IMG/VR virus record: IMGVR_UViG_3300042569_001383 | Location: 88,125 to 144,950 of that record | Direction: 5' to 3' (one strand) | DNA: 56,826 nt | Source: a virus | In this document: positions 264-56,636 of the stretch, one piece after another | Layout: every line of letters begins with the position of its first letter | Numbering within the stretch: the first letter of the stretch is position 1 | The notes under the pieces: generated by a model | Databases searched by the model: none | Told to the model about the DNA's origin: nothing | What the model saw: only the letters and a program-made list of their open reading frames with translations | Program-made: the position numbers and the translations under genes

Positions 264-272
264 TATAAATAT
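264..272 (-). promoter_or_regulatory. Late-promoter-like motif before the putative tape measure gene
   Basis: Coding strand reads ATATTTATA, ending 5 nt before the ATG at 258. If it is a promoter the transcript would be nearly leaderless. Confidence 0.4.
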
Positions 273-275
273 TAG

Positions 276-545
276 TTATTTGAATTTACCGGGGAGTTTG
301 GTTTTGGATGTAGTCGTAGTTTCTGCCGGTGTGTTACGCATTGCTATTATTTGATTGACGCGTCTAGTCCACAATGCACGTATATGTACTGGCATATGAT
401 ACACGGTGTTCCAATCCCATCGGCCTTCGCCGAACCAAATCAAATTGAATAAATTTTCATGAAGTGTTAGTTGATGTTCAGGTTTAAACCCAAAAAAGGT
501 CGCCTCCAATTTGAAACCCGGCAGTAAAGGTGCCTCCTGTTTCAC
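276..545 (-). CDS. Second tail assembly chaperone ORF, probably made by frameshifting from the gp26-like gene
   Basis: The frame is open from about 572 to 276 and overlaps the end of the gp26-like gene by at least 62 nt in the other frame. The first possible start is a GTG at 545 with no Shine-Dalgarno; no ATG occurs until residue 51. The product (up to 89 aa) contains HENLFNLIWFGEGRWDW and MPVHIRALW, a pattern I associate with the small T4 gp26/gp51-type hub-assembly and gpT-like chaperone proteins. Position between tube and tape measure is the classic place for a chaperone pair in which the second product is a frameshift extension of the first. I therefore infer a fusion of about 325 aa rather than a separately initiated protein. 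Confidence 0.65.
   Translation of the reverse strand: MKQEAPLLPGFKLEATFFGFKPEHQLTLHENLFNLIWFGEGRWDWNTVYHMPVHIRALWTRRVNQIIAMRNTPAETTTTSKTKLPGKFK
484..501 (-). other. Candidate programmed frameshift site (-2 or +1)
   Basis: The coding strand in the frame of the upstream gene reads GAC CTT TTT TGG GTT TAA, with the six-T run at 492-497 and the stop at 484-486. A -2 slip of the Phe tRNA from TTT (493-495), or a +1 slip of CTT to TTT, both re-pair well and both enter the downstream ORF. The downstream frame is open only from about 572, so any shift must occur inside this short window. Confidence 0.5.
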
Positions 546-1257
546 CCGGGAATTCAGCTTCGAGTTTTATACTTGGCAAATTATCTGCAATGTATTTGCG
601 AAACGTTTTTGATTCCGTTGGAGTCATTTGATAACGTATAAAATGTTCGATATCATGCATGTCTCTTTTGCCGTTAACTTCTTTGATTGTTAATTTTAAA
701 AAATCTGATACAGCATGTTCATCGGATATAGTTTCAATGTCGCGACGTGAAATGTATTTGAATTTAATTGCAATTCCTTCTGCTATGTAATCAAACTCGC
801 CAGCGGCATTTGATTGTATGGTCATTGGATTAACTTGCAATTTAGATAAGTTCATGTTTCGTTGAACTAGCTTTGGTGGATTAACTGTAGAATCCGTTAC
901 AGTAACTGGATATTCTGGTCCGTAACCATGTACTCGTGCTGCAATTATCATTGCCTCTTTATCAGCAACAATCAATTCATTGATATCAATTGGGTCTAAA
1001 ACCAATGAAGCTATCAATTTATCTAATACTACGCCTTGTTTAATATAAGTAGAATTAGTTAAAATATCTTCATCATATGCAGTCATGTACCGCATTTCAA
1101 CAACACCTTTTCTTAATGGACTTGTTTCTGGATATACTTGTCCGTTGCTAGGTAATGGTACCATAACAGATGGCACGACGCTACGTTGTTTGTTTTCGTA
1201 TTGTTGTTTTGCTAATTCAATTAGATTTTTATCGGTTACACGATTTGTTACTGGCAT
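484..1257 (-). CDS. gp26: T4 gp26-like baseplate hub / tail assembly chaperone
   Basis: 257 aa; ATG at 1257 preceded by AAGGAAG. Around residues 35-70 it has LPSNGQVYPE, then EMRYMTAYDEDIL, and later VADKEAMIIAARVHGYGPEYP. This order (LPS-G-Y, MT-x-x-DE, D-x-x-x-hR-x-x-YG-x-Y) is that of the T4 gp26 family of phage baseplate proteins, which act in hub assembly and are encoded beside the tape measure. The gene lies between the tail tube and the putative tape measure. Its last codons overlap the next ORF at a CTTTTTT run, suggesting that a minority of ribosomes make an extended product. It has its own promoter-like motif and follows a terminator, so it can be expressed separately from the tube gene. 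Confidence 0.8.
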   Translation of the reverse strand: MPVTNRVTDKNLIELAKQQYENKQRSVVPSVMVPLPSNGQVYPETSPLRKGVVEMRYMTAYDEDILTNSTYIKQGVVLDKLIASLVLDPIDINELIVADKEAMIIAARVHGYGPEYPVTVTDSTVNPPKLVQRNMNLSKLQVNPMTIQSNAAGEFDYIAEGIAIKFKYISRRDIETISDEHAVSDFLKLTIKEVNGKRDMHDIEHFIRYQMTPTESKTFRKYIADNLPSIKLEAEFPGETGGTFTAGFQIGGDLFWV

Positions 1258-1284
1258 AAACTTCCTTTTCTTTTATAACTTTTA

Positions 1285-1293
1285 TATAAATAT
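1285..1293 (-). promoter_or_regulatory. Late-promoter-like motif before the gp26-like gene
   Basis: Coding strand reads ATATTTATATAAAAG; the core ends 27 nt before the ATG at 1257 and lies directly downstream of the tube-gene terminator. Confidence 0.55.
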
Positions 1294-1303
1294 TGCGGAC
1301 ATG

Positions 1304-1331
1304 AAAAATGGGTGAAATTTCTTCCACCCAT
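1304..1331 (-). terminator. Rho-independent terminator after the tail tube gene
   Basis: Coding strand has a 7-bp perfect stem ATGGGTG/CACCCAT (arms 1325-1331 and 1308-1314) with a 10-nt loop, followed by a T run at 1308-1304. It begins 12 nt after the tube gene stop. Confidence 0.85.
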
Positions 1332-1342
1332 CGCTTAATTTA

Positions 1343-1951: not shown

Positions 1952-1975
1952 AATTATATCCTCAATATTTTTACA

Positions 1976-1984
1976 TATAAATAT
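1976..1984 (-). promoter_or_regulatory. Late-promoter-like motif before the tail tube gene
   Basis: Coding strand reads ATATTTATATGTAAAA; the core ends 24 nt before the ATG at 1951 and follows the sheath terminator by about 10 nt. Confidence 0.55.
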
Positions 1985-2046: not shown

Positions 2047-4482
2047 TTATTCAGGAAACGCTGCACCCGTTGGTTGAATATTGAAATCTAAAATAATAAA
2101 CTCAGCCGTTCTAGTTGGTTGCAAAAATAATTGTCCATACAATATATTTCTATCAACTAAATCCGGTGTATTATTTGTTGAATCCATTACAACTTTAAAT
2201 GCAGATAAACCTTGATTTTGTTTTACTCCACCTAAATACGGATTAACAATGTTAAGGAACTTGTTACGAGTAGCTTCTGTGTTTTGGTCAAATACTAAAT
2301 AACGAGTTGATGATGCAATAAATTTCTTAACTTCAATCAATAAACGACGAACATTAACACGATCTAATGCACTTGGTCTTGCTTGTAAGGTCTTTTGACC
2401 CCAAATTACAATCGTATTGTTAGGGAATGTCGCAATAGGGTTAACGCGGTTTTCATACAACGTATCTCGTTGAGTTTGTGACAAGTTAACTGCAGTACCT
2501 ACCGCACGTAAACCTCCTCGATTCAAACCAGCTGGGGCATACCATTGTGCAGCTAATCTATCATTGTTTGCTAATGCTCCACCTACTACAACTGATGGTG
2601 GTACCCATAATAATCCACCATTTCCTGCTGGATTGTTAACCGATACCCATGGCCAATATGTTGCTGTATAATTGTTATCAATTGTTCTAACTTGAGTAAC
2701 AACGGTTTGCAAAGAATCACCTTTTGCGTTAGAATCCATAACATAGAATACATCTTGACGTGCTCTACATAAATTTCTAGCTTCAGACGTAACTGCGCTA
2801 TGTAAACTGTCAACTACACCTGGCGTTAACAATACATTCATATCATAATAATCTGTATTGCTTAACAACGTAAATGCTTTGATATATGATTTAGTACCAG
2901 TTGCTGATGTAGAACTACAATCAAATCCAAATGTATTTGCAGCAGTTATATTTGCTCCGGAAAATTTAGGTAAATTTGGACGTGCTCCATCAAACCCACC
3001 TTGCATTGGTACAATGAATTTTCTCGTATTAATTGATACATTTGTTGCAAATGTTCCTGCCGTAATTGCTGCTGACAATGAGCCAGAATATGCAGTTGCT
3101 GCTGTTGGATAATTGTAATTTGCTGATTGAGATACATCTCCTAAATAAAAATCAACATTGTTTCCTACTGTTGCACCTGTTGTTGGAATTGGAGCTAGGT
3201 AGTTCATGTTAGATGCTGCGGTAAAATCAAATCCATGATATACAAATGGACTAAATGCACCACCTACTATTTGATTTAATTTGTAAGTAGATGCTGGCAA
3301 ATTAACATTTCCAGCTACCATTGGTATTGGCGAATTAACTGCACGGAATCCGAATGGGAACAATGTTTTATCAATAGCTTTGTTTGGTACTGCTGCATCT
3401 ACTTCTATTCTTACGAATGGATTTGTATTTGCATAATCTCCGTACAACGAAATTACGTTGTTATCATCTATTGTTTGATATCTATCACCAATTTTCTTAA
3501 CAATGTAATCTGCTGAATCTGGATTCAAACAACAGTTAGTAAATGAAATTACTTCTGATGTTGATGTGTTAATATCGCTGTCTGATACAGATCCGAACAC
3601 TGAATTAGGAATATTTGTAGTATCAACTCGACGAATGATAACATCAAAACGTGCATATCCGTCCGGGTCGCTAACTTCAGTTGATGATTTAATGTTAGCA
3701 ATTGCAACTTTCAATTCATAGTTTGTTGCGTTACCATGTGATAATGAATGCAATTTAAACAAGTTAGTTGCAATCGAACCAATTTTTTGTGAAGTAATCC
3801 ACGGAGTTGCTGCTGCTTGATAGTCTTGTGCAAATGCATACGTTGAAATTGTTTCCAATGACATTGACACTGCTGATAAATCGGCTAACAATGAAGATGT
3901 AAATGCCGCTTCGTATTGTACATAAGCAGGATATGTTTGTCCTTTTGGAGATTTTCCAAAAATTGTTGTTACATAATCAGAATCAGTTGCATTGATTGAT
4001 GCCGAAATTGATGCGCCTTCTGCGTATGATACCGTACCACTATATGAACCAGATAATTTTAAATTAAATCTACCATTTACGTCTGTAGTTAATACCGAAT
4101 CAGCAAAATAAGATGATGTAACATTAACCGGTACCGTTGGATGCAATAAATGTGTCACGTATTTTTGTGAACCTGATTGTGCTACAATTGCTAATGCTCC
4201 GCTGTTTAAAGAATATCCATCTTCATACATTAAACGCGTTACTGTGATTACATTGCCTGATTGCAAATATTCATTTACTGCTACAGGTACATATGATTCA
4301 TCCGTAAAACCTCCAAATACATTTTGGAAATCGCCAATACTTGTAATTTGTATTGGTGTGTATGCAGGTCCTTTTACGGTTGGACCTACAATTGCTGCAC
4401 CGATTTGTGCAATTGCTCCTGGTAAAAACGATTGATCAACTTCATTCGTAAATACACCAGGCGAAACTATTCGTTCTGCCAT
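2047..4482 (-). CDS. gp18: Tail sheath protein (T4 gp18-like)
   Basis: 811 aa; ATG at 4482 with a strong AGGAG eight nt upstream. The N terminus (SPGVFTNEVDQSF, then GAIAQIGAAIVGPTVKGPA and FGGFTDESYVPVAVNEYL) and the C terminus (NPYLGGVKQNQGLSAFKVV, then PTRTAEFIILDF) are typical of contractile sheath subunits. These parts form the conserved interlocking core; the long beta-rich middle section, including the region with SSTSATGTKSYIKAFTLL, corresponds to the variable surface domains. T4 gp18 is 659 aa, so this one is larger in the exposed insertions. It is followed by a strong terminator and preceded by its own late-promoter-like motif, consistent with high-level late expression. Confidence 0.95.
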   Translation of the reverse strand: MAERIVSPGVFTNEVDQSFLPGAIAQIGAAIVGPTVKGPAYTPIQITSIGDFQNVFGGFTDESYVPVAVNEYLQSGNVITVTRLMYEDGYSLNSGALAIVAQSGSQKYVTHLLHPTVPVNVTSSYFADSVLTTDVNGRFNLKLSGSYSGTVSYAEGASISASINATDSDYVTTIFGKSPKGQTYPAYVQYEAAFTSSLLADLSAVSMSLETISTYAFAQDYQAAATPWITSQKIGSIATNLFKLHSLSHGNATNYELKVAIANIKSSTEVSDPDGYARFDVIIRRVDTTNIPNSVFGSVSDSDINTSTSEVISFTNCCLNPDSADYIVKKIGDRYQTIDDNNVISLYGDYANTNPFVRIEVDAAVPNKAIDKTLFPFGFRAVNSPIPMVAGNVNLPASTYKLNQIVGGAFSPFVYHGFDFTAASNMNYLAPIPTTGATVGNNVDFYLGDVSQSANYNYPTAATAYSGSLSAAITAGTFATNVSINTRKFIVPMQGGFDGARPNLPKFSGANITAANTFGFDCSSTSATGTKSYIKAFTLLSNTDYYDMNVLLTPGVVDSLHSAVTSEARNLCRARQDVFYVMDSNAKGDSLQTVVTQVRTIDNNYTATYWPWVSVNNPAGNGGLLWVPPSVVVGGALANNDRLAAQWYAPAGLNRGGLRAVGTAVNLSQTQRDTLYENRVNPIATFPNNTIVIWGQKTLQARPSALDRVNVRRLLIEVKKFIASSTRYLVFDQNTEATRNKFLNIVNPYLGGVKQNQGLSAFKVVMDSTNNTPDLVDRNILYGQLFLQPTRTAEFIILDFNIQPTGAAFPE

Positions 4483-9739: not shown

Positions 9740-10030
9740 TTATAGTCCTTTTTCTATTATGAATTGTTGTATAACTGTTAATATATTATATGCTGCCGTT
9801 TCAGCAGGCATATCTTCAGATGCAAATACATCTAAATAAACCACAGGACGATCATGACCCGATAACGTATCAGGTACTCCACCATCCAATTCTCGATATG
9901 GAGTTAGTCGCATTGCAACACTAGCTCCTATTTCCGTGGATTTGATTAAAGGAGATATCGATAAATTTACTGTATAGTATGGATATTCAATTCCATCTAC
10001 TACGATTGGGTTTACGGATTGTATTGGCAT
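9740..10030 (-). CDS. Small conserved-looking protein between fibre and appendage array
   Basis: 96 aa; AAAGGAAC before the ATG at 10030. It begins MPIQSVNPIVVDGIEYPYY and alternates strand-like stretches (VNLSISPLI, ASVAMRLTPYREL, PVVYLDVFASED) with a C-terminal helix (ETAAYNILTVIQQFIIEKG). I do not recognise the family. Its place directly after the repetitive fibre gene and before the paralogous array, and its own promoter-like motif, suggest a role in fibre assembly, attachment or as a small structural piece. No signal peptide or membrane segment is seen. Confidence 0.75.
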   Translation of the reverse strand: MPIQSVNPIVVDGIEYPYYTVNLSISPLIKSTEIGASVAMRLTPYRELDGGVPDTLSGHDRPVVYLDVFASEDMPAETAAYNILTVIQQFIIEKGL

Positions 10031-14853: not shown

Positions 14854-16077
14854 TTATCCAACATATATTCTTAAAGGTGCTTTAGACAACAATTCATTCA
14901 TTTGTGTTGCTTCTGCATTTTGTCGAGTTAACATTTGTTCTTTGGTTAATTTATCTAGAAATTCGCGAAGCTGTGCAACCAATGATTCTTTTTCTGATTG
15001 ACCTTGCGATACTAAATCCGAACCATTCAATGTTACTTCTCCGTTTGGTATCGGTACAGATGAATATTTGTTTCGGACATATCCTAGCATTTCTTTAACC
15101 AATGCTACACCATATCGAAGAATCCAAGCACGACCCATATCATTGATTGTTCCGTACTGTTGATATGTATATGGTATATTTGATGAATCACTTACAACAT
15201 TTTCCATAACAGCAGAATTTCCAAAAAGCAACGCTTCCGTATTTTTTTGTTCTTCAAATAAAAATTCAAACCAAACCGTACCAAAATATGCAGTTGATAT
15301 TGTACCTTGCGTTCCTGGTACTGGATAAATGCGTAAATCATCGCCATGTATTTCAAATGAAAAATGTGATTTACGTATTTGATCGTTGAATTCAATAGCC
15401 TGTAATCTCATTAAATCTGCATGTAATGGCATCATCATGAAATTTACAGATGGCGAAAATCCACCAAAGTCGAATGCATCTAAAAGTCCTTGTGAACCTA
15501 AACCAGTTCCAACGAATGGGTCAAAATAACGTATTACTGCTGGAGGTGGATTATGTAACACTCGACGTATTTCAATTGAACTAGTATTGCTTAAAGGTAT
15601 TCCCAATGATGCAGATACTGCATCTCGAATGCTATAATTTTGACGTCCCGATTCCACAGTAAATGATGCGGAATGCCATTTTAATGTACCACCCGATTCT
15701 GCTTCAGTTCCGTATGCTTTGCTAAGTTTAACAATATACGATAATGAATTTCCTACTTGTTTACCCGTTAAACCTGCACTACCTAACAATGATGACGATG
15801 TTTGTAGTCCCATTGTATTAAGTAAATTGTTAACGATATTAACTTGATTAACTTGATTTGAATATTCAATTACCGCAGCTTCGAAAGCTGTATAAAAGTT
15901 TATGTCTTGAAGTTCAACATCCATAATTGGATATCCAACTGTCTGTGCTGCAAATTTTGCAAATTTATCTGCATGTTGTTGAAACATGGGATCGGCATCG
16001 AAATACCCAAATGGAGTAGATCCAGTTGTAAATGATGAACTCCCGGGCCAAATTGGTTTTTCTATGCTATAGTCCAT
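14854..16077 (-). CDS. gp13: Neck protein (T4 gp13-like)
   Basis: 407 aa; ATG at 16077 with AAAAGGAAA upstream. Early residues MLLxx-free region aside, it shows GYPIMDVELQDINFYTAFEA followed by IEYSNQVNQVNIVNNLL, and later NPPPAVIRYFDPFVGTG, SPSVNFMMMPLHADLMR, HGDDLRIYPVP and ILRYGVALVKEMLGYVRNKY. This is the T4 gp13 neck-protein pattern (T4: 309 aa); the insertions around residues 85-130 and 180-230 account for the greater length. It forms the upper neck ring on the portal after packaging. A promoter-like motif overlaps the stop of the preceding phoH gene, so a neck operon 13-14-15-fibre probably starts here. Confidence 0.85.
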   Translation of the reverse strand: MDYSIEKPIWPGSSSFTTGSTPFGYFDADPMFQQHADKFAKFAAQTVGYPIMDVELQDINFYTAFEAAVIEYSNQVNQVNIVNNLLNTMGLQTSSSLLGSAGLTGKQVGNSLSYIVKLSKAYGTEAESGGTLKWHSASFTVESGRQNYSIRDAVSASLGIPLSNTSSIEIRRVLHNPPPAVIRYFDPFVGTGLGSQGLLDAFDFGGFSPSVNFMMMPLHADLMRLQAIEFNDQIRKSHFSFEIHGDDLRIYPVPGTQGTISTAYFGTVWFEFLFEEQKNTEALLFGNSAVMENVVSDSSNIPYTYQQYGTINDMGRAWILRYGVALVKEMLGYVRNKYSSVPIPNGEVTLNGSDLVSQGQSEKESLVAQLREFLDKLTKEQMLTRQNAEATQMNELLSKAPLRIYVG

Positions 16078-16785: not shown

Positions 16786-17061
16786 TTAATGTAATTTTGT
16801 AAGAGTTGTTTCTTGCAATGTCATTTCGCGAAGGGTTTCAATTTTACCTATACACATTTTTCTTATTGCAAAAAACGTTTCACGTGGTGCATACGGCGTC
16901 ATTATCTTCAATGTAATGCGTTCGCGATCTGGACCTAAGTCTTGTTCAATATGAACCATTAACACCAATCTAACTGCGCGTATTCTATCTAGCACGTCGA
17001 TTAAACGACCATCATATCGAATAATCGCTTCCATGGAATATTTGTTTCTTTCTACTGCCAT
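16786..17061 (-). CDS. Small hypothetical protein downstream of the capsid gene
   Basis: 91 aa; ATG at 17061 with no Shine-Dalgarno and a promoter-like motif 12 nt upstream. Predicted order of elements looks like strand (YSMEAIIRYDG), helix (RLIDVLDRIRAVR), strand (VLMVHIEQDL), strand (RITLKIMTPYAP), helix (ETFFAIRKMCIGKIETLREM), which would suit a ferredoxin-like fold. That is only a visual inference. I do not recognise the family. It follows the capsid gene's terminator, so it begins a new transcription unit with phoH, 20 nt downstream. Confidence 0.75.
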   Translation of the reverse strand: MAVERNKYSMEAIIRYDGRLIDVLDRIRAVRLVLMVHIEQDLGPDRERITLKIMTPYAPRETFFAIRKMCIGKIETLREMTLQETTLTKLH

Positions 17062-19886: not shown

Positions 19887-20004
19887 ACTAGTTCCCCTTA
19901 AATTTTGTTTTTTTGGAAGTAAGATTATTTGTAAATCTTAATAAGAATAAATTGTTTTGTAACGCTATATAAAGAACAAAATAGCGTATTCTAAGAATAA
20001 ATAT
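19887..20004 (-). promoter_or_regulatory. Promoter-like motif and structured leader of the core-capsid operon
   Basis: The variant motif ATATTTATT lies at 19996-20004, 109 nt before the start codon. The leader contains a 7-bp stem ACGCTAT/ATAGCGT (19962-19968 with 19981-19987), a 6-bp stem AAGATT/AATCTT (19921-19926 with 19934-19939) and a direct repeat aagaataaat (plus strand) at 19943-19952 and 19993-20002. It is much the longest leader in the window and precedes the most highly expressed head genes, so it may stabilise the mRNA or control its translation. Confidence 0.5.
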
Positions 20005-20077: not shown

Positions 20078-20323
20078 TTAATCTCTATGCATATCGCGGA
20101 TTTTCTGAATATATCGCGCTGCATTAAGTTCATCACGACGTTCAACGCAAGGTTTAGTAAAAGTACGAATATCTTTAACTTTTTCTAAAACGCCGGCAGA
20201 TTTCATTTTTCTTTTAAACGTTTTCAATGCGTGCGATAAATCTTCTCGGGTTGTACCTTGAACACTTACTGCTAATGAATTGCCTGGGACAATTGCTTTG
20301 TGTTGTTTTTGTTTTTTACTCAT
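20078..20323 (-). CDS. rpsU: Phage-encoded ribosomal protein bS21
   Basis: 81 aa. Residues 32-68 (ALKTFKRKMKSAGVLEKV, then FTKPCVERRDE) match the bS21 core A-L-x-x-F-K-R-x-x-x-x-A-G-V-x-x-x-h and the downstream F-x-K-P-x-V-x-x-R. The tail AARYIQKIRD resembles the A-x-Y-I-Q-x-x-R-D ending I associate with Bacteroidota bS21, in which the Tyr is part of the anti-Shine-Dalgarno pocket; the equivalent here would be Tyr71. An N-terminal extension of about 15-18 residues (basic, Gln/Lys-rich) is unusual. bS21 sits on the 30S platform next to the 3' end of 16S rRNA and affects initiation. The gene is last in the protease-to-bS21 unit, 9 nt after the upstream stop, has no Shine-Dalgarno and is followed by a terminator. 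Confidence 0.92.
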   Translation of the reverse strand: MSKKQKQHKAIVPGNSLAVSVQGTTREDLSHALKTFKRKMKSAGVLEKVKDIRTFTKPCVERRDELNAARYIQKIRDMHRD

Positions 20324-37733: not shown

Positions 37734-38668
37734 ATTAATCCCATTCTCAATTCCATAACTCGTTCAAAAGTTAAGATAGTTGTATTTTCTAAAATTTCTG
37801 TAATTTTTTCAAAACCTAATTCCGATGCATCTTCGTTTTTTAGTTCAACGAAATATACATTTAAGCCTTCACCCATAAACCGTTCAGCAATCGTTAACGC
37901 ATTTTTCAAAGCATCCGAATCTAAACAAATATAAATTTCTTTAACACGTTCTTGTATGATTTTCTTTTGCAATGCAGGTTGTATGATTTTTCCAAATAAT
38001 GGTATCGCATTGCGTTTAACGGCAATTGCATCAAATGATCCTTCACATAAAACAATTGGTTCAGACCAATTTATTAACATTTCAAAACCAATAATATCTT
38101 TAGAAATTTTAGGATTCTTATGTTTAAATTTATCTGCTTTATAATAAGCACGACTAACAAAATAATTTAATTGACCATCATTATCGTAACTAGGTATGAT
38201 TATTTTGCCGGAATATTCACCAGATTCGCAATATCCAATTCTGTATTTTAAAATATCAAATATTGTTATGCCTCGATTAGTTAAATAATGTATTGCATTA
38301 CGATAATCTGGTGTTGATTTTTTAATCCATAACGGAGAATATTCTGCTGGAATTTGTATGGATTGATTTGGCTTCGTGTCAGTTTCAGTAACGCGATATC
38401 GAGCCGATTCAATTATTCGATTTAATTGTTCGAATCGTTCTTTAGGTAAATTTAATTGTTTAAATAAAGACGCAATACTTCTACCTTTTTTATCTGAAAT
38501 CCAACAATGCCAAGCATTTTCTCCAGAACTAGTTGTATTGATATCAATTTCTAATTTTGGTTTGTAATGAGATTGAAACGGAGAAAAGAACGCAATATTA
38601 TTTCCGGAAGTAATTTTTCCTTTTCCTAATATTGATTCAAGTAATTGAAGTAATTTAAGATTCTTCAT
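37724..38668 (-). CDS. gp61: DNA primase (T4 gp61/DnaG-like) with a degenerate zinc-finger region
   Basis: 314 aa (T4 gp61: 342). The Toprim catalytic core is visible: IVLCEGSFDAIAV with Glu209, and YICLDSDA with Asp250 and Asp252; IKKSTPDYRNAIHYLTNRGI followed by KYRIGYCES is the DnaG-like region between zinc domain and Toprim. The N-terminal part FFSPFQSHYKPKLEI ... AWHCWISDKKGRSIASLF lines up with the usual C-P-x-H ... W-x-C-x-x-C zinc finger but keeps only Cys55. It synthesises RNA primers for lagging-strand replication. A 200-base AT-rich gap precedes it. It is followed without pause by the gp47-gp46 fusion. Confidence 0.88.
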   Translation of the reverse strand: MKNLKLLQLLESILGKGKITSGNNIAFFSPFQSHYKPKLEIDINTTSSGENAWHCWISDKKGRSIASLFKQLNLPKERFEQLNRIIESARYRVTETDTKPNQSIQIPAEYSPLWIKKSTPDYRNAIHYLTNRGITIFDILKYRIGYCESGEYSGKIIIPSYDNDGQLNYFVSRAYYKADKFKHKNPKISKDIIGFEMLINWSEPIVLCEGSFDAIAVKRNAIPLFGKIIQPALQKKIIQERVKEIYICLDSDALKNALTIAERFMGEGLNVYFVELKNEDASELGFEKITEILENTTILTFERVMELRMGLIWT

Positions 38669-39380: not shown

Positions 39381-39926
39381 TCACCAATCTACTAATACTA
39401 TTTTATTGTTCCACATCATTACGTTTTGTGAACTGAAATCTAAATCTAAATCAAATTCCGGAATGTTTAATTTGTCAACATCTCGTTGCAATGCACGTAA
39501 AAAATTAACTAATTCGACTGACGTATCTCTTGCACCATCCGCATCCAGAAAATCAAATATTGAAACTTCGCCTCCTTCACTTCTTGCAAATTGTTTGAAT
39601 CGATTTAAAAAGGAATCAATTTGATTGACCATGTTCGACGAAATAGGATTGGCATTTGCCATTATAAACATATGTTCTTGGTCATTAACATAATACACCG
39701 GTATAAACGTTGTAAATTCATCCCAACGTCCTACAATACGAGTTGCAACTTCAAATTCATCTCGTTCGGTAGTAACTTTAAAAACTTTGTCTGCTCCGTT
39801 AATTTCATATACTCGACCATTATCACCGCGTCCAAGAAATTGGAATTGTTTGTTTCGTATTTTATCTAATAATTGAGAAACCTCTGATTCAGCAATTTCT
39901 GTTAATAATTGTTTTAAACGTATCAT
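39381..39926 (-). CDS. Minimal kinase-like protein (N-lobe plus catalytic loop, no C-lobe)
   Basis: 181 aa; ATG overlaps the stop of the preceding gene (ATGA). Glycine-rich loop LGRGDNGRVYEI at 31-42, VFKVT with Lys50, EFEVATRIV with acidic residue near 57-59, FIMANANP hinge-like at 87-94, the catalytic-loop form DLDFSSQNVMMW with Asp163 and Asn168, and IVLVDW with Asp180 as the DFG-equivalent. The chain ends directly after that W. The pattern is of the aminoglycoside-phosphotransferase/protein-kinase-like superfamily, in which the metal-binding Asp, Asn and Asp are retained. Similar short kinase-like proteins may exist in T4-like phages; a substrate cannot be guessed. It may be active or a pseudokinase. 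Confidence 0.75.
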   Translation of the reverse strand: MIRLKQLLTEIAESEVSQLLDKIRNKQFQFLGRGDNGRVYEINGADKVFKVTTERDEFEVATRIVGRWDEFTTFIPVYYVNDQEHMFIMANANPISSNMVNQIDSFLNRFKQFARSEGGEVSIFDFLDADGARDTSVELVNFLRALQRDVDKLNIPEFDLDLDFSSQNVMMWNNKIVLVDW

Positions 39927-41551
39927 GCTATATTCTTATCTAAATCTATTCTAATTAAAAAATTCATATCAACATCATTGCGTTTACGTATTGGTTGTGC
40001 CATTTTTCCGATAGCAAGAAGTTGACCTGCATCATCATACAATCCAACCGTAGTTATATATGGAGCAAACGCACTGCCAGTAGCAAATGTTCTGTACGTG
40101 ATATCATTATCTGCGGTTAATGATAAATTGCTTGAAACATTGAAATCGCTTGAGTCTACATTCGCAATTACATTAAGTTCATTAATAGTTTTTGTGCTTC
40201 GATATGAAGCTGTATACGGTAAATTTAAAATATCATTGAAACGATAATCCGGGGTTGATATTACAACTTGTCCTTGTTTAGCAAATACATTTCCGATACA
40301 ATTGGTTTGTAAAAATGTACCACCCTCGGTTCTATCAGATAAATATCCAATTTCAGATACAGTTAATGCTTTGTTAAATATGCGTATTTCGTCTAGTTTA
40401 CCTTGCAAATTCATTGACGTGGTATCGAACCCACCAATAAATAAATCCGAGTAATTATCGATCCTAGCAGATGCAGTAAATGGCGATTCATGATATTGTA
40501 ATAACGTGCTAGATGCCGATGCGTGTAAAGCCCCATTAACGTACATATGTAATGCACTGCCAGACTTTTGACACAATATATGCGTCCATGTATTAACTGC
40601 GACGGACGATGTTATAGTTAGTTTAAACGTAGTGCTACCCGCAGCTGAGAAAATTAATTGATTGCTTCCGCTTAATTCTACTCGGAATGGATATTGCGGT
40701 TGCAAAGAACTAGATGCTTTCGATAATACCAATTCATTTGCAGATGTCGTATTTGCTCCGGATATAAAAAATGATATTGCATAATTTACATCTCGAGAAT
40801 AGTCTCCATCTAATTTTGTTTGAATATAGCCCGCGCCATCGAATTGTGCACTTTTACCAATACTTGCAACTGTTCCATTAGTTGTTGCAATTCCATCAAC
40901 ATATGTAACACCGGAGCTATTATACGTGATTCTAGATGTATCAAAATATTCATTGAATCCTTCATAATACGTAACGCCAGATACAATTGAACTAGTAAGA
41001 AATGCTGTATTGTATAAATTTCCGTAACGATCTGATTTTATATACAATGGCAATGGGGTTCCACTATAACTACTAGTACCATACGTGCCTAAACCGTATA
41101 CCGTATTATCATTATAACTAGCAGTTAAAGTAAATGATGCTGGTTTTATGCCTTCTCCAACTTTAACCATTGGAAATGATAATATGGATGCTGATTCGAA
41201 CAATAATTTATTTGTGCGATTCAAATCAGTTGGACCGAATGTGTTGTATGGCTCTGTTTTTCTTTTGTAGAATAAATGATTAATCGAAAAATACGTAATT
41301 GTCTGCAATGAATTATCAATATTTTTTGCATCATTGTATATTAATTCAGTACCTAATGCTGGTAAAATATTTGTATCAGAATAAATTGCAGTTAATGGCA
41401 TTACACTACTAGTAGAGCTACCCGAAATTACAGTCCATGATTTATATGTTTGAAATGGATTAACTTTTACATCAGACTCACCAATCTTTTTAAAGACAGT
41501 TGGAGTTGGGCCTGTGTAATTATCCTGTTGTTTTATTTTTGATTCTGACAT
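39923..41551 (-). CDS. Tail protein with a LamG/concanavalin-like domain
   Basis: 542 aa. Residues about 225-400 form a LamG-like jelly roll: SIGKSAQFDGAGYIQTKL, DVNYAISFFISGA, WTHILCQKSGSALHMYVNGA, SDLFIGGFDTTSMNLQGKLD and EIRIFNKALTVSEI. Such domains bind glycans or act as trimerisation or adhesion modules. The last 45 residues (YITTVGLYDDAGQLLAIGKM) match the end of the upstream gene at 41610-42908, a shared docking or capping module. The N-terminal 200 residues are polar with no known motif. I infer a baseplate-associated or receptor-binding protein. A terminator-like hairpin with an embedded promoter motif precedes it. Confidence 0.78.
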   Translation of the reverse strand: MSESKIKQQDNYTGPTPTVFKKIGESDVKVNPFQTYKSWTVISGSSTSSVMPLTAIYSDTNILPALGTELIYNDAKNIDNSLQTITYFSINHLFYKRKTEPYNTFGPTDLNRTNKLLFESASILSFPMVKVGEGIKPASFTLTASYNDNTVYGLGTYGTSSYSGTPLPLYIKSDRYGNLYNTAFLTSSIVSGVTYYEGFNEYFDTSRITYNSSGVTYVDGIATTNGTVASIGKSAQFDGAGYIQTKLDGDYSRDVNYAISFFISGANTTSANELVLSKASSSLQPQYPFRVELSGSNQLIFSAAGSTTFKLTITSSVAVNTWTHILCQKSGSALHMYVNGALHASASSTLLQYHESPFTASARIDNYSDLFIGGFDTTSMNLQGKLDEIRIFNKALTVSEIGYLSDRTEGGTFLQTNCIGNVFAKQGQVVISTPDYRFNDILNLPYTASYRSTKTINELNVIANVDSSDFNVSSNLSLTADNDITYRTFATGSAFAPYITTVGLYDDAGQLLAIGKMAQPIRKRNDVDMNFLIRIDLDKNIA

Positions 41552-41558
41552 GGTTAGT

Positions 41559-41591
41559 AAAATCCCCGTTATACATATAAATATAACGGGG
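41559..41591 (-). terminator. Terminator-like hairpin with a promoter motif in its loop
   Basis: Coding strand has a perfect 10-bp stem CCCCGTTATA/TATAACGGGG (arms 41582-41591 and 41564-41573), an 8-nt loop, then ATTTTAC. It lies between the 41610-42908 gene and the LamG gene. Confidence 0.65.
41576..41584 (-). promoter_or_regulatory. Late-promoter-like motif inside the hairpin
   Basis: Coding strand ATATTTATATG spans stem and loop of the hairpin; the core ends 24 nt before the ATG at 41551. Confidence 0.5.
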
Positions 41592-42922: not shown

Positions 42923-43579
42923 TTATTTATTTGCGGTAGCAGTTGTTAGTTGTTTAACTGTCAATGTAATAGTAACACTACCACCAGTTTCATTTCCTAT
43001 AATAGTAATTGTAGCAGTTTTGTCTGATAACATTTGTGTTTTAGCAACAACTCGGAATTCAAATCCAGATACAGCTACACTTTGTGCGTCTTCATTATCT
43101 CCAATAAAACGTGGAGTCGTTGGCAATACTGTATTTTGTAAAGCACGAGTAACTTGTATATCAGCAACAGTAGAATCTGATAATATTGCTGTATAACCTA
43201 AATTTGAATTACCTGATTGGAAATTGCTTGTATTAGGTGCAATGATTGCATTATTACCTGGTGCTGCTAACGTAATCAAAGTGTTACCAACATTAATTAC
43301 TGGTATATTAGTTGTTTGTTTTGGTAATGTAATTAATTTGTATTTCAATGCCTGAGTTTCGTCCGGAATTGCTTCTGTGATTGGCATATTTTCTATGATA
43401 GTACCATAATAATCAGTTCCAAGTGGGTGATCTGGATTCCATAATGAATAATCAATTTCATCGTCTCCTAACGCAAATTGCGAAATTTTAAACGCGTTAC
43501 CACCTTTTGCTAGCAACTCACGTCCTTTTAATGTTAATATTGCGTCAATCGTAACGCTAGAATTATCTAAGTATCCCAT
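42923..43579 (-). CDS. Conserved structural protein of the baseplate/fibre region
   Basis: 218 aa; ATG at 43579 with TAAGG upstream and a promoter-like motif 20 nt away. The N-terminal part, GYLDNSSVTIDAILTLKGRE followed by ISQFALGDDEIDYSLWNPDH and YYGTIIENMPITEA, is a pattern I recall from uncharacterised structural proteins of T4-like environmental phages, in which an N-terminal domain with KGRELLA and DDEIDY is followed by a variable beta-rich part. The C-terminal half is Thr/Val/Ile-rich with FEFRVVAKTQMLSDKT, likely a beta sandwich. Function unknown; a connector for fibres is possible. Confidence 0.78.
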   Translation of the reverse strand: MGYLDNSSVTIDAILTLKGRELLAKGGNAFKISQFALGDDEIDYSLWNPDHPLGTDYYGTIIENMPITEAIPDETQALKYKLITLPKQTTNIPVINVGNTLITLAAPGNNAIIAPNTSNFQSGNSNLGYTAILSDSTVADIQVTRALQNTVLPTTPRFIGDNEDAQSVAVSGFEFRVVAKTQMLSDKTATITIIGNETGGSVTITLTVKQLTTATANK

Positions 43580-47140: not shown

Positions 47141-48139
47141 TTAGTCAAATATAAATTCATCAGAGCCTGGAATTTTTGTTCCAACTTTAGTTGTTGTGCC
47201 GTCATATATAATTGCATTTAATGTAACAGTTTCACTGCTACCTTGTATGTCGTATACGCCGGACGTATTATTAATTCCATATAACGGGGTTTCAATTGGT
47301 ATATCTACAACTTCTACAGTCCAAAATGATTTGTCAGTTAATACATACGCCGGATTGCCAGCAACTGCATTAATAGTAAATACATCATCTTCTACTAAAT
47401 CATCAGAATTCAATATAAATTCCATACCTAATACCGGATATGCACTAGTTGGGGTTGCTGTGGTTTGCAATTCAATCGCCGGAAATAACCATGGTCGATA
47501 TGATTTAATGTTATCGCGAGTTAAACGAATTTTAACATCTGTATTCGAATTAGTTACTGTAGATACGAATTGCGTTTGTATGATAAACTTTAAAGTTTTA
47601 CCACGAGTACGTAACGTTTCAATTGTACTTTTTGTTAACGTATATGCATTGTCTCGTGTCTGCGTACCACCGGAAAACGGTAATTCTCTAAATCCAGATG
47701 ATTCAAAGCCAGTTGAATAAAACCAATTACTTTCATATGATGTATTAATTTTTTCTATTGTAATAGGTTGATTTTGCTCGTCATATGTAATTGGTAATCT
47801 TAATTCCGTGTTAATATCTTGTTCTAGTTCCGGTAATTCTAAATCGATGCTAGCAGTTGTTGTTTGTATAACTCGAGTAGTTGCTGGAAATTTAAAATAT
47901 TGAAATCGCGTATCTAAAACTTTAAGTACTGAAGCAAGTTGAATTTTTGTTGCAGTCGGCTCAATTATAAGTAACGGATTGGTTTCTGATTCTTCATTTA
48001 ATTGAATATTACCAGATCCGTCACGTGGCACGATATTGGTATTGTTAGATGTAACAGTTAAATTTCCAATATATTTTGTAAATTGAGCCAATTTAATTGG
48101 ATCAAATAGTTTACCGAAATTTCTTATTGGTGTTTTCAT
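47141..48139 (-). CDS. Baseplate-region structural protein (unknown family)
   Basis: 332 aa. Its ATG overlaps the stop of the previous gene (TAATG). It starts MKTPIRNFGKLFDPIKLAQF, followed by IGNLTVTSNNTNIV, and is beta-rich (IQLASVLKVLDTRFQYFKF, TLKFIIQTQFVSTVTNS, MEFILNSDDLVEDDVFTINA). No enzymatic motif or membrane segment. Between gp6-like and gp7-like genes its position fits a wedge or wedge-associated protein such as T4 gp8 (334 aa), which is similar in length; sequence resemblance is not evident, so gp8 is a guess. Translation is coupled to the upstream gene. Confidence 0.72.
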   Translation of the reverse strand: MKTPIRNFGKLFDPIKLAQFTKYIGNLTVTSNNTNIVPRDGSGNIQLNEESETNPLLIIEPTATKIQLASVLKVLDTRFQYFKFPATTRVIQTTTASIDLELPELEQDINTELRLPITYDEQNQPITIEKINTSYESNWFYSTGFESSGFRELPFSGGTQTRDNAYTLTKSTIETLRTRGKTLKFIIQTQFVSTVTNSNTDVKIRLTRDNIKSYRPWLFPAIELQTTATPTSAYPVLGMEFILNSDDLVEDDVFTINAVAGNPAYVLTDKSFWTVEVVDIPIETPLYGINNTSGVYDIQGSSETVTLNAIIYDGTTTKVGTKIPGSDEFIFD

Positions 48140-49272
48140 TATCTAACTACTTTAAAATATACATCATCATCTACAAATTGTTCTGTGAAACCATCAATGA
48201 TTTTAAATTGTAAACGATAGTAACGTTCTGGCATAAACCCATTCATATCTATATAAATGTAATTGCTGGTATTATCACAACTTACTTTAGTATAAATATT
48301 GTCATATGGAATAATGACCTCATCAGTTGCTGCATCTAGTACCGTATAATATGTAGTAGCCGGCAAACGTTTAACGGTTTGTGTTGGAAATAAATTAGTC
48401 GGAGATTTTTGTGGATATTTGTCTCTGGTATATATACGCATCTTAATTATTTCAGTATCACGATATTCTGGTTTTAACTTTGTATACACTGTATACGATT
48501 CTAAATCAACAGCAGACAAAGACGACGAATAATATGTATCATCCCAATACATTGTAAGTTTAGGAACATATATGGTATGTGTCTCTTTGCTAAAAAACTG
48601 CGTAAAACCAGTTACGGCATCATTTAATTCATCAGCATCTGAGAATTTCAATACGAAACCGTTATTATCTATAGATTGACTGTTACTGCCACTTATCCAT
48701 TTTAAAACTATATCGGATACATCAATTGATAAATCTGTAGTTTGATATGAAAATGATTGCGAACATGTAAACACAGAACTACCGGTACTATACAACCAAC
48801 TACCACCCGCGCCAGAACCTGATACAAATATACCAGATGAGCCTAATTCAATTTGTTGTGAACTAGATATCCACAAATTACCTACTTGTGAATCTAATGA
48901 CCAAGATGCATATGGAGTTGCCCATTGTACGCCGTTTGAAATGATTGGATCAGAAGATGCATATCCAGTTCCATTAATCCATGGTTGCCCTGCTAATTTT
49001 ACATCAATTGTATATTGTGATGGCAAGTTTTTTGCATAACTAGTATATAATTGCAATACAAATTTGGCGTTTGCTGGCGATACTGAATATTTTGATAATG
49101 ATGCTGAAACTTCAGTTTTATCAAATTTAATTAACGATCTCGATTTTTGCCATGTACTACCGTCGGTACCTAAACGTTTTCCAATCTCTAAGATTTCATC
49201 TAATCCAGTATTGGTTGTAGGTAAACCTGCGTAAACAGTAGCATCGGCTTCGGGATAAAATATTTTAAACAT
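48139..49272 (-). CDS. Baseplate-region structural protein with a DNRLRE-like beta-sandwich
   Basis: 377 aa. The beginning FYPEADATVYAGLPTTNTGL followed by DEILEIGKR and SRSLIKFD looks like the DNRLRE/CBM-like pattern (x-D-A-x-V-x-x-x-x-x-x-x-N-x-G-x-x-x-x-L-x-V-G ... R-x-L-I-x-F-D) used in surface proteins. Later parts are Ser/Tyr-rich strands (YTVYTKLKPEYRDTEIIKMR) and end YYRLQFKIIDGFTEQFVDDD. I infer a virion surface or baseplate-attached protein, perhaps with glycan affinity. It has a promoter-like motif 13 nt before its ATG and no Shine-Dalgarno. Confidence 0.72.
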   Translation of the reverse strand: MFKIFYPEADATVYAGLPTTNTGLDEILEIGKRLGTDGSTWQKSRSLIKFDKTEVSASLSKYSVSPANAKFVLQLYTSYAKNLPSQYTIDVKLAGQPWINGTGYASSDPIISNGVQWATPYASWSLDSQVGNLWISSSQQIELGSSGIFVSGSGAGGSWLYSTGSSVFTCSQSFSYQTTDLSIDVSDIVLKWISGSNSQSIDNNGFVLKFSDADELNDAVTGFTQFFSKETHTIYVPKLTMYWDDTYYSSSLSAVDLESYTVYTKLKPEYRDTEIIKMRIYTRDKYPQKSPTNLFPTQTVKRLPATTYYTVLDAATDEVIIPYDNIYTKVSCDNTSNYIYIDMNGFMPERYYRLQFKIIDGFTEQFVDDDVYFKVVR

Positions 49273-51190: not shown

Positions 51191-51637
51191 TTATTCGATT
51201 GTAATATTACCTGTATTTGATGTGTTTAAAGTTATAGTTTGACCTAACAATGATGTTGATACTGTAAACTGAATTGAAATTGTAATTAAATAAATTAAAC
51301 TTGGATCATCTTCTGCAGTTTTAATATCAATGTTTTGTATATTAATATATGGCAACCAAGTAGATACTGCAGATTGTATTAAATCTACTATATCAGGTTT
51401 AATTTCATCTATGTTCGGTTCAAAAATAATTTCTTTTAAATTGCAACCAAATTTTATCCAATCACCGGTTCGTTCACCTGGATATGTTAATAGTAAATTT
51501 TTAAAATTATTCCTAGCTTGTTCTTCATACGTGTACGCTGTTTGAAATGTACCTGGTGCTGAATATAAAAGGGAAATACCAAACGGAGTTTGTGTATTTG
51601 TGTTTGCAACGTTACTAGGAATTATTACATATGACAT
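51191..51637 (-). CDS. gp25: Baseplate wedge protein (T4 gp25-like)
   Basis: 148 aa (T4 gp25: 132); ATG at 51637 with AAAAGG upstream, overlapping the stop of the upstream gene. The gp25/GpW fold is evident: QARNNFKNLLLTYPGERTGD, WIKFGCNLKEIIFEPNIDEI (with the conserved E-P pair), IVDLIQSAVSTWLPYINIQN and a final beta pair LIYLITISIQFTVS. It is a core wedge subunit that helps to start sheath polymerisation and interacts with gp6 and gp53. Despite the old family name lysozyme-like, there is no sign of lysozyme activity. Confidence 0.92.
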   Translation of the reverse strand: MSYVIIPSNVANTNTQTPFGISLLYSAPGTFQTAYTYEEQARNNFKNLLLTYPGERTGDWIKFGCNLKEIIFEPNIDEIKPDIVDLIQSAVSTWLPYINIQNIDIKTAEDDPSLIYLITISIQFTVSTSLLGQTITLNTSNTGNITIE

Positions 51638-52134
51638 TAGTTACCTTTTTTCTTTTCAATTGCTTTCATTAACGCAGAATAATCTCGTGTCATAGCTTGT
51701 GCTACTTCCGGTGCTACGTCATATGTTTTACCAGTTTCTGGGTCTTCCATTATACTTGGCGCAGCATTAACAGTTCGAGACATACCAAACGTTTGTGCAT
51801 TAGATGAGTCGAAACGCAATTCATCCATTCCTTCTTGCAATAGTTCTTTAAACCCACTGATTCCTGCAGGATTAGTTTCAAGTAATGGGTCAGTCTGATT
51901 TAATACAGATGCCCATTTATTTTCAGAAAATTGAACTTTTGGTTTCTTACCAACTTCATTTGCCATTCTCGGAGCAATTGTTTGTCCTGTAATACGAGAA
52001 ACAGCTGATTTCTTCGGCTGTGCCATTTCATTAATAGTAGATTGTAATCCTTCTTTAAGAATTTCAGTTAATTCTTCTTTTATAACTTCACGTACGGCTA
52101 CTTTAAGTGCTTTTATTAATGTTTTTGAATCCAT
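51637..52134 (-). CDS. Hypothetical baseplate-operon protein
   Basis: 165 aa. It starts with an amphipathic helix (LIKALKVAVREVIKEELTEI), followed by RITGQTIAPRM, then PAGISGFKELLQEGMDELRF, VNAAPSIMEDPETGKTYDVA and a C-terminal helix (AQAMTRDYSALMKAIEKKKG). I do not recognise the family. Its stop overlaps the start of gp25, so translation is coupled, suggesting a role in wedge assembly. T4 gp53 would be expected near here, but no resemblance was seen. A variant promoter-like motif lies 14 nt upstream. Confidence 0.72.
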   Translation of the reverse strand: MDSKTLIKALKVAVREVIKEELTEILKEGLQSTINEMAQPKKSAVSRITGQTIAPRMANEVGKKPKVQFSENKWASVLNQTDPLLETNPAGISGFKELLQEGMDELRFDSSNAQTFGMSRTVNAAPSIMEDPETGKTYDVAPEVAQAMTRDYSALMKAIEKKKGN

Positions 52135-52148: not shown

Positions 52149-52157
52149 AATAAATAT
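52149..52157 (-). promoter_or_regulatory. Late-promoter-like motif (variant) before the gp25-gp6 unit
   Basis: Coding strand reads ATATTTATTAATAAAA; the core ends 14 nt before the ATG at 52134. Confidence 0.45.
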
Positions 52158-54037: not shown

Positions 54038-54472
54038 TTATGCCCCCGTTATTTTTTGTTTGGCGGAATCTATTTTGTTTTGCAAAACGCGTTCTTGTTG
54101 ATCCATTTTTCGCAGATCTTCAATTTCATCTGTTAATTCTGTTTCCAAAGTAGATTCTGCAATTTTAAGTAATTGTTGTTTTTCATCATCACTTAATAAC
54201 GAGTCGACTCCGGCAATAGTTTGTTGAGTTGAAATATAACGCTGAACAATTGCAGTTAATTTTACGAGGTGATCGTCATTTTTAACTGCAACGTCTAGGT
54301 ATTCTTTGATTAACGGAACAATTATCGTAGCATCAGACGCATTCTTAATTAATGGCTGTAATTGAGCTATTAACTGAGTTATTTGCCTGTCTTTCTTTTT
54401 GCTGTTATGATACACGTCAGACATTAAATCTGCAAATGATGTACCTTTAAATAATTCTTCGTTTTTATCCAT
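54038..54472 (-). CDS. Conserved coiled-coil protein of the late module
   Basis: 144 aa. MDKNEELFKGTSFADLMSDV begins a charged helical protein with QITQLIAQLQPLIKNASDAT, VPLIKEYLDVAVKNDDHLVK and LTAIVQRYIS; the wording E-L-F-K-G-x-S-F-x-D-L ... P-L-I-x-E-Y-L-D-V-x-V-K-N-D-x-x-L-V-K is a pattern I recall from hypothetical proteins of T4-like marine phages, always beside the spike gene. The C-terminal half is a coiled coil. Two overlapping promoter-like motifs precede it and there is no Shine-Dalgarno. Function unknown. Confidence 0.78.
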   Translation of the reverse strand: MDKNEELFKGTSFADLMSDVYHNSKKKDRQITQLIAQLQPLIKNASDATIIVPLIKEYLDVAVKNDDHLVKLTAIVQRYISTQQTIAGVDSLLSDDEKQQLLKIAESTLETELTDEIEDLRKMDQQERVLQNKIDSAKQKITGA

Positions 54473-54485: not shown

Positions 54486-54500
54486 TATAAATATAAATAT
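54486..54500 (-). promoter_or_regulatory. Tandem late-promoter-like motifs before the coiled-coil and spike genes
   Basis: Two copies of ATATTTATA overlap on the coding strand (54492-54500 and 54486-54494), ending 19 and 13 nt before the ATG at 54472; the only doubled site in the window, placed at the head of the baseplate module. Confidence 0.55.
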
Positions 54501-55201: not shown

Positions 55202-55475
55202 CAAACTCCTCTTTAAGATTATCAATTACTTCTTTTAACAAAGAAAATGTAGTACCAGCTTCGTCGTCTTTTTCAAAAGCACCGATACGGTCAAGTTCTT
55301 TCATTTTCATGTATGTTTCGCAAATCTTATCATACATATAAATGTTTGTCAATTCAACACTTTCATGATATTCGTCACTGTCTGCTAATAATCCAGCTAA
55401 AACATAAGCACGATAACCAAAATATACGCAGACTATTAGCAATGCGATACTTGTTAATGATAAAAATACTGTCAT
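55176..55475 (-). CDS. Small membrane protein of the sigma-factor operon
   Basis: 99 aa. Residues 4-29 (FLSLTSIALLIVCVYFGYRA) form one membrane span near the N terminus, with the remainder acidic and helical (SVELTNIYMYDKICETYMKM, SLLKEVIDNLKEEFDGE). The ATG overlaps the TGA of the HD-domain gene (ATGA), and its own end overlaps the start of the sigma factor gene, whose ribosome site lies in its last codons. I do not recognise the family. It could anchor something at the inner membrane; nothing further can be said. Confidence 0.75.
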   Translation of the reverse strand: MTVFLSLTSIALLIVCVYFGYRAYVLAGLLADSDEYHESVELTNIYMYDKICETYMKMKELDRIGAFEKDDEAGTTFSLLKEVIDNLKEEFDGEASEEK

Positions 55476-56245
55476 GAGTTAAATGCTTTAAAAATGTCAG
55501 TTAATGATTTTTCAACTTCTGGATTGTTTTCTGCTAGATTTTTTAATCCGTTGCTTTTAGTAACTTTGCTTTTTTCAACAACTGGTTTAGGAGTTGCATT
55601 GTTTCGATTTCTCCAACGTTCAAATTCAATGGTTGATGCCATATGATCTGCGTGATGCAAAATAATTGGAAGATTGGTTTTCAATTTAGCTTGTGGTGAT
55701 CTAGCAACAAAATACGGTTTATTTGCTTCGTCATACATTCCATCATGAATTTTGATTGCTTGATATTCTGTCCAAGACATTTTAACACCATATTCTTGCA
55801 ACAACCAAATTGATAAATCTGGTACCATTGTGAACGGAATGTTTGGATTTGCTTTGTACAATTTTCCTTGATTCTTACGATGCCAATCTGAAGTTTCTAT
55901 TTGATACACTTCATTGCCGTCACCTGGAAATCCTACTTTGCCTAAATCATGATGCATTGCAGCAAACATCATTTCTTCTTTAGTATAACCAGACATATCA
56001 GCACCCATCGCGGTCCAAGTAAAATGTAATGAATCAACGCAATCCATAACACGAAGTACGTGGTCTACATAACCTCCGGCAAATGCATTATGAAAATGTT
56101 CCATGGAAGATGCTGGCATCATTGCCATGCGATCTTCAAAATCATCATACATTCGATTTAATGCCGTTTTACGAGTAGGAAATAATGTATTAACTAGTTC
56201 TCGATATCGTTCCCAATTCGACTTAATTTTTTCTGCTTCTAACAT
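55472..56245 (-). CDS. HD-domain metal-dependent phosphohydrolase
   Basis: 257 aa. The HD set is clear: GGYVDHVLRVMDCVD with His62, MMFAAMHHDLGKVG with His98-His99-Asp100, AIKIHDGMYDE with His167, and ILHHADHMAS with His197-His198-Asp200. It resembles HD-family hydrolases such as 3'-5' or dNTP/cyclic-nucleotide phosphohydrolases that occur in T4-like phages; the substrate is unknown. A counter-defence role (hydrolysis of a signalling nucleotide) or nucleotide metabolism are both possible. It has a probable basic C-terminal tail. It is first in the operon with the membrane protein and sigma factor. Confidence 0.88.
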   Translation of the reverse strand: MLEAEKIKSNWERYRELVNTLFPTRKTALNRMYDDFEDRMAMMPASSMEHFHNAFAGGYVDHVLRVMDCVDSLHFTWTAMGADMSGYTKEEMMFAAMHHDLGKVGFPGDGNEVYQIETSDWHRKNQGKLYKANPNIPFTMVPDLSIWLLQEYGVKMSWTEYQAIKIHDGMYDEANKPYFVARSPQAKLKTNLPIILHHADHMASTIEFERWRNRNNATPKPVVEKSKVTKSNGLKNLAENNPEVEKSLTDIFKAFNS

Positions 56246-56272
56246 AACTTTTTTTATTATTATAATAAGTAA

Positions 56273-56434
56273 TTATTTTCGCAATTCCAAAACATGACCA
56301 TTAACTAGTTTCGATGTGCATTCCCAACATGTAATTGCAGTGGCTTTTTCATCAACTCGTTCACAAACCGTATCGCAATATTTGCATTGCAACCTTTTAT
56401 ATCCTTTTGGTGGTTGTGTTGTTTTTTTCTTCAT
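56273..56434 (-). CDS. 53-residue zinc-ribbon protein
   Basis: 53 aa, ATG 56434 to TAA 56273. It contains CKYCDTVC at 17-24 and CWEC at 36-39, giving two CxxC pairs, the plan of a zinc ribbon. The N terminus is basic (MKKKTTQPPKGYKR). The ATG overlaps the TGA of the upstream gene (ATGA), so translation is coupled. Small zinc ribbons of this kind occur widely in phages with unknown roles, including RNA polymerase or nucleic-acid binding. The overlap and the clean Cys pairs make it a real gene despite its size. Confidence 0.75.
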   Translation of the reverse strand: MKKKTTQPPKGYKRLQCKYCDTVCERVDEKATAITCWECTSKLVNGHVLELRK

Positions 56435-56610
56435 TCTCGGTCTATGTAATATTTTGCTGAATCTAATTTCGTAAGTGCTTTTGCTAGATTTGTCAATGCA
56501 GATGCCTTGTCGATTTTACCTTCTTTTAACATTAAACCCGTTGTACGGATAATTTCACGAGCATCTTCGATGTCGTCTGTCATTTTTGCTTTGTAACGGT
56601 ACTGTGCCAT
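56431..56610 (-). CDS. Small hypothetical helical protein
   Basis: 59 aa from ATG 56610 (MAQYRYKAKMTDDI). An in-frame ATG at 56643 is unlikely because the promoter-like motif lies between them. The sequence is two helices (DIEDAREIIRTTGLMLKEGK and ASALTNLAKALTKLDSAKYY) with no known motif. Its stop overlaps the start of the zinc-ribbon gene. I do not recognise it. Confidence 0.68.
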   Translation of the reverse strand: MAQYRYKAKMTDDIEDAREIIRTTGLMLKEGKIDKASALTNLAKALTKLDSAKYYIDRE

Positions 56611-56627
56611 AATATAACTTTCTTTTA

Positions 56628-56636
56628 TATAAATAT
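56628..56636 (-). promoter_or_regulatory. Late-promoter-like motif before the 59-aa gene
   Basis: Coding strand reads ATATTTATATAAAAG; the core ends 17 nt before the ATG at 56610 and begins in the stop of the next gene upstream. Confidence 0.55.

Follow-up and report, generated by a model that had tools for sequence, protein, structure and literature searches.

The DNA stretch analysed here (the window; 56,826 nucleotides (nt)) spans positions 88125-144950 of virus record IMGVR_UViG_3300042569_001383 (144,950 nt) and carries the 9-mer ATATTTATA, or its variant ATATTTATT, shortly before many gene starts. In mechanical open reading frame (ORF) calls, almost all substantial genes lie on the - strand of the record. 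Genes for a T4-type head and tail are present in the window (major capsid, portal, terminase, protease, sheath, tube and baseplate), and a gp45-type sliding clamp is encoded at record 59328-60038 (phrog_223 match, E 1.6e-8). By capsid and portal, the nearest annotated relatives are Flavobacterium phage immuto, Microcystis phage Mel-JY01 (record name), the metagenomic LR756508 and Rhodothermus phage RM378, and a host in or near Bacteroidota is therefore likely. The genes behind the motif are virion, GroEL-type chaperonin, holin, lysozyme-region, glycosyltransferase and homing-endonuclease-like genes, the last class being assigned by sequence reading alone, and these classes fit the late-promoter function proposed in the initial annotation.

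The 9-mer ATATTTATA occurs 17 times in the window, every copy on the - (coding) strand, and dinucleotide shuffles of the window, counted on both strands, gave a mean of 4.9 and a maximum of 13. The extended form with a phased AAA, ATATTTATWNNAAA, is present 14 times versus 0.5 expected (maximum 2). Counted over the whole record against gene starts, ATATTTATA has 26 coding-strand copies and 1 on the other strand, 21 of the 26 lie no more than 40 nt upstream of a start (random positions, 5.1%), and it is the top-ranked 9-mer of the record for nearness upstream of starts. For ATATTTATT, five copies were found in the window, four upstream of genes and one intragenic (34281). The 15 ATATTTATA and 4 ATATTTATT sites listed initially are thus reproduced when the intragenic ATATTTATA copy (48291) is set aside and the overlapping pair at 54486/54492 is taken once. 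Also borne out was the spacing given for 18 of these 19 sites, at which the 9-mer ends 5-27 nt from the ATG; the single outlier, at 19996, lies 109 nt away.

Because the genes of the record are nearly all on one strand, the direction of the motif, which had been the main doubt about it, was tested in relatives. The comparison set consisted of 160 IMG/VR loci gathered via the capsid protein and a gp55-like protein described below, and the sense and antisense counts were made with exact duplicates removed. Before 85 opposite-strand genes, ATATTTAT was found 39 times in sense and 0 times in antisense; before 1264 other genes, the counts were 251 and 26. The 39 sense cases are not all independent because the genes form paralogue clusters, yet their sequences differ widely. 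RM378, which shares the T4-type structural genes and has many genes on each strand, carries the sense TATTTAAnnnAA motif before genes of both strands; there the core is TATTTAA, which precedes 14/65 and 26/80 genes in sense and has 61 copies in the genome, 40 of them upstream of starts. Distant loci (gp55-like protein 27-30% identical; two at 46-47% G+C) likewise have sense TATTTAT before genes of both strands. The comparison with related loci and RM378 settles the doubt in favour of the sense direction. In the T4 control region, TATAAATA itself was recovered in sense, 24-28 nt before 8 of 9 starts.

De novo motif finding yielded a 14-15 nt element, ATATTTATATwAAAA. Expectation maximisation (EM) seeded with T4's TATAAAT converged nonetheless on ATATTTATATTAAAA, with the core conserved at about 93-99%, and the element as modelled by EM precedes 52% of window genes. 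Aligned on the core, A is found at positions 12-14 in 73/92/89% of 135 independent clusters, and this AAA keeps a fixed spacing to the motif rather than to the ATG over motif-ATG distances of 7-40 nt. In T4 numbering, in which the T of TATTTATA is -13 (PMC2988020), the AAA occupies -3 to -1 and the +1 base is in most cases a purine, while the core has TT at -10/-9 and a strong A at -14, where the immuto clade favours C. No conserved -35 box was found among the 135 upstream clusters. In relatives (L023-L182), a weak T-rich tract stands at a fixed distance, -28 to -24, in 40% of clusters versus 9% of controls; it mostly comes without a terminator hairpin, and its interpretation as a terminator was rejected for most cases on that ground.

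Compared with T4 late promoters, the element has several common features: a single -10-like box, an AT-rich segment immediately downstream, no -35 conservation, use before late genes, and the adenines A-12 and A-8. However, it agrees with the 8-bp T4 box TATAAATA at 6 of 8 positions, as had been correctly stated, and by sequence it is therefore not a T4 late promoter. It differs in the core TATTTATA, the strong A at -14 and the conserved AAA, and the start codon is usually 13-20 nt from the box, which is also the modal distance from the 9-mer to the ATG in the window phage's family, versus 24-28 nt at most T4 control-region sites. Late-promoter consensus boxes identified in silico are known from the T4 relatives Aeh1 (an Aeromonas phage), KVP40, 44RR and S-PM2; those of KVP40, 44RR and S-PM2 are highly similar to T4, that of Aeh1 differs at -13/-12, and no TT centre is described for any of the four (PMC2988020). 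No TATTTATA late promoter is described in the literature searched, which left out most subscription journals.

The capsid operon leader supports sense transcription from the inferred start, as a 7-bp stem found in about 30 related loci starts 1-3 nt past the inferred +1 of this operon. Among 29 distinct stem sequences, which were selected with a pattern fixing part of the stem, all cells are paired, two pairs change on both sides and 9 cells are double changes, and the covariation score was reached by no shuffle or slide. The hairpin resembles 5'-terminal stabilising hairpins. Its position and the AAA(A/G) phase both agree with a putative start about one turn past the box, as in T4.

We consider it likely that the element is a sense-oriented late promoter, T4-like in working, with its core changed from AA to TT, recognised by the gp55-like sigma factor and giving mRNAs with very short leaders or none. 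What the analysis demonstrates is the motif with its phase and direction, the gene classes behind it, the degree to which it is conserved, and a hairpin that keeps its place relative to the inferred start. As proposed, ATATTTATA with its phased AAA would be the -10-like element read toward the gene, host core RNA polymerase with the phage gp55-like sigma would melt it, and transcription would start about one helical turn downstream, within or just past AAA(A/G). Our inferences are the precise position of +1, the role of the gp55-like protein in recognising the element, and whatever activation the sliding clamp may provide. From the close motif-ATG spacing, very short leaders are predicted, of about 0-22 nt at all window upstream sites but one and of about 8-15 nt at the mode in the window phage's family. 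In RM378, nine genes have exactly TATTTA-N7-ATG, never closer; since this would put the A of AUG at +1, leaderless late mRNAs are predicted for this phage. In a subclass with ATATTTATTAATATG or a near form, the motif abuts the ATG (seven sites in relatives and three in the record), and such genes would need a leaderless mRNA or a shifted start.

The gp55-like sigma factor claimed for the window is indeed present as a protein with a sigma-region-2 fold, but its kinship to gp55 is remote and it has no match to PHROG 234, the gp55 profile, at E<=1. The gene was noticed on reading and subsequently recovered by comparing profiles, and its product ranks first among the phage's 184 own ORF products against the gp55 profile. 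Among PDB sequences, a profile search brought up no sigma factor, and a pairwise search with T4 gp55 and the RM378 sigma against the phage's own proteins gave nothing convincing. In an AlphaFold model (predicted local distance difference test, pLDDT, 77.6), residues 13-110 have the sigma-region-2 fold (Z 10.2, root-mean-square deviation 2.5 over 90 residues against a SigB chain), and the top rows of the structure search are mostly sigma region 2; for the C-terminal domain, the rows at Z ~5 are the signal recognition particle M domain, sigma region 4 and a homeodomain. With T4 gp55 (PHROG 234, late sigma transcription factor) the protein shares sigma region 2 and an aligned FDP...AY(F/I)T block, and it differs in being about 50 residues longer, in its helical, weakly helix-turn-helix-like C-terminal domain and in the lack of a direct hidden Markov model match. 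Its hydrophobic C-terminal tail, (D/N)F(I/V)(K/N)LPF, a candidate for the clamp-binding tail of the gp55 family, is conserved in the window phage's clade and absent from the immuto clade. In the phage collection, the protein was found only in immuto, Mel-JY01 and LR756508, where it is not annotated as sigma; with the Mel-JY01 protein as query, no viral contigs matched. Immuto and Mel-JY01 are motif-bearing, and the relatives of the gene travel with the motif. In T4 gp55, A-12 and A-8 are bound in deep pockets and held by Y97 and T99, and A-9 in a shallow pocket (PMC7892883). By eye on the hhalign alignment, Y97 and T99 correspond to Y93 and T95 of the gp55-like protein, and TATTTATA retains A-12 and A-8 and alters -10 and -9; we infer that the protein would read TATTTATA through these two retained adenines.

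Several points weigh against this reading. First, the gp55 match is remote, since hhalign against the gp55 alignment gave P 2e-4 to 7e-4 and a probability of just 26-45%, and the AlphaFold model has a predicted template modelling score (pTM) of 0.49 with Foldseek E-values above 0.1. Second, a change at H95 was dropped as the cause of the AA-to-TT switch because cyanophage gp55 likewise lacks H95, so no residue change accounts for the switch. Third, RM378 has the motif with no detectable gp55-like gene and an extracytoplasmic function (ECF)-type sigma in its place, and no upstream motif was seen in the 16.6 kb stretch of LR756508 examined. In addition, the assumed start geometry is hard to reconcile with genes in which just 3 nt separate the motif from the ATG, and transcript ends or biochemistry were found for none of these phages.

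Among the other explanations, recognition of the same sense promoter by a host sigma factor, not by the gp55-like protein, survives best, and we regard it as unlikely. The RM378 case would fit it, and the unusual -7 box of Bacteroidota promoters, TAnnTTTG (PMC6847099), which is accompanied by a -33 TTG, shares TA..T with TATTTAT. However, RM378 has its own phage sigma, there is no -33 TTG signal, and TAnnTTTG precedes 3/304 and 7/245 clusters, fewer than its own reverse complement, so that host promoters of this type were rejected as nearly absent upstream. Moreover, the motif stands before late classes, apart from a second motif of other genes. This second motif consists of TTGG followed some 20 nt later by TTTC(A/T)TATAAT; it is found at record 1280-81912 (and, for example, in L009, L010 and L011), with 14 coding-strand copies and 1 on the other strand and none in the window or structural block; it precedes PD-(D/E)XK nuclease, AAA/VWA and PNK-phosphatase genes and is probably an earlier (early or middle) promoter class.

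It is considerably less probable that the element acts in the mRNA, as a translation-initiation or RNA-processing signal, instead of as a promoter. The sites do lie near start codons in an A-rich context, translation initiation in Bacteroidota is A-rich and without Shine-Dalgarno (SD) sequences (PMC6847099), and cleavage at the same place would likewise put the hairpin at the 5' end. Yet the 15-nt element stays intact at ATG distances between 3 and over 60 nt, and at 109 nt before the capsid operon, its AAA keeps phase with the motif and not with the ATG, and some copies directly follow terminator-like hairpins. Least credible of all is that the sites are TATAAATA promoters of the canonical T4 type that fire on the other strand and give antisense RNA. 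TATTTATA and TATAAATA are exact reverse complements, and nearly all genes of the record share one strand, but the motif turns with gene direction in the relatives and RM378, which refutes this comparatively, the downstream AAA and the hairpin of the capsid leader are both on the side of the gene, and the TATAAATA of the T4 control region is sense.

Table 1. Copies of the late-promoter candidate and associated features in the window (window coordinates unless marked record).
Feature	Position	Strand	Context
ATATTTATA	264..272	-	5 nt before ATG of window-leaving gene (record 86451-88382)
ATATTTATATAAAA	1280..1293	-	before baseplate-hub-like gene 484-1257
ATATTTATA	1976..1984	-	before tail tube gene 1343-1951; directly after terminator-like hairpin and T-run
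ATATTTATATAAAA	4500..4513	-	before tail sheath gene 2047-4482
ATATTTATAATAAA	10041..10054	-	before gene 9740-10030
ATATTTATATAAAA	16088..16101	-	before head-tail adaptor-like gene 14854-16077
ATATTTATTATAAA	17069..17082	-	before gene 16786-17061
Conserved 5' stem-loop ACGCTAT...ATAGCGT of capsid operon leader	19962..19987	-	3 nt after inferred +1 (19990)
ATATTTATT	19996..20004	-	before two-gene run 18843-19886 and major capsid protein 17159-18811; long leader
ATATTTATTTAAAA	23548..23561	-	before gene 22678-23532
ATATTTATATTAAA	25407..25420	-	before portal gene 23563-25398
ATATTTATATAAAA	29297..29310	-	before gene 28385-29281
ATATTTATATAAAA	31818..31831	-	before gene 29312-31807
ATATTTATATAAAA	34574..34587	-	before gene 31840-34560
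ATATTTATA	41576..41584	-	before gene 39923-41551; within hairpin CCCCGTTATA...TATAACGGGG
ATATTTATATGAAA	43595..43608	-	before gene 42923-43579
ATATTTATACTAAA	48286..48299	-	inside gene 48139-49272, ~150 nt upstream of gene 47141-48139; may be an internal promoter
ATATTTATACTAAA	49281..49294	-	before gene 48139-49272
ATATTTATT	52149..52157	-	before gene 51637-52134
Two overlapping ATATTTATA copies	54486..54500	-	before gene 54038-54472
gp55-like protein, 233 aa	54500..55201	-	sigma region 2 at residues ~13-110, helical C-terminal domain, tail TDFIKLPF
ATATTTATATAAAA	56623..56636	-	before small gene, first ATG near 56610

Some further observations were made in the record and its relatives. Many unrelated proteins share an N-terminal leader, MIRLK(D/Q)(I/L)L(K/T)E (MKNILAENMLRFGVKNLSES in relatives), which resembles T4's capsid-targeting sequence. 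It is found at window 39381-39926 and at record 34644-35393, 36997-38045, 71113-71991 and 78673-78924, and in opposite-strand clusters of L025, L028, L038, L056 and L057; in relatives, the genes that bear it form paralogue arrays, and many of them have a late motif to themselves. The proteins with this leader may constitute an extensive group of internal or ejected proteins. The ATATTTATTAATATG subclass (record 35405, 38057 and 72003; on the opposite strand in L056, L057, L063, L074, L097 and L102) mostly precedes genes with this targeting-like leader. Between the capsid and protease genes, the window encodes ribosomal protein S21 (20078-20323; Pfam PF01165, E 1.4e-10), which is annotated in the same position in Mel-JY01. 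A single-cell contig of Prochlorococcus sp. AG-409-L21 (L275) carries a gp55-like gene at 30% identity together with TATTTATatataaaa motifs, and represents either a phage group of wider host range or co-sorted virus DNA.

The phages of the window and its relatives may form a separate late-transcription lineage among T4-superfamily phages, mainly of Bacteroidota, although we put this forward only tentatively. In such a lineage, an element of 14-15 nt, centred on TTT and containing its own AAA start region, would be read by a gp55-like sigma that carries an extra C-terminal domain, and many late mRNAs would begin at or a few nt before the AUG, which would suit hosts without SD initiation. The 229 and at least 600 contigs matched make up a large group of uncultured phages, for which the element provides a late-promoter signature and the gp55-like protein an unannotated sigma candidate, so that late-gene calls and operon maps become possible in them. 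With both deep-pocket adenines unchanged, this group also provides a natural experiment on how the centre of a -10 box is read by sigma region 2.

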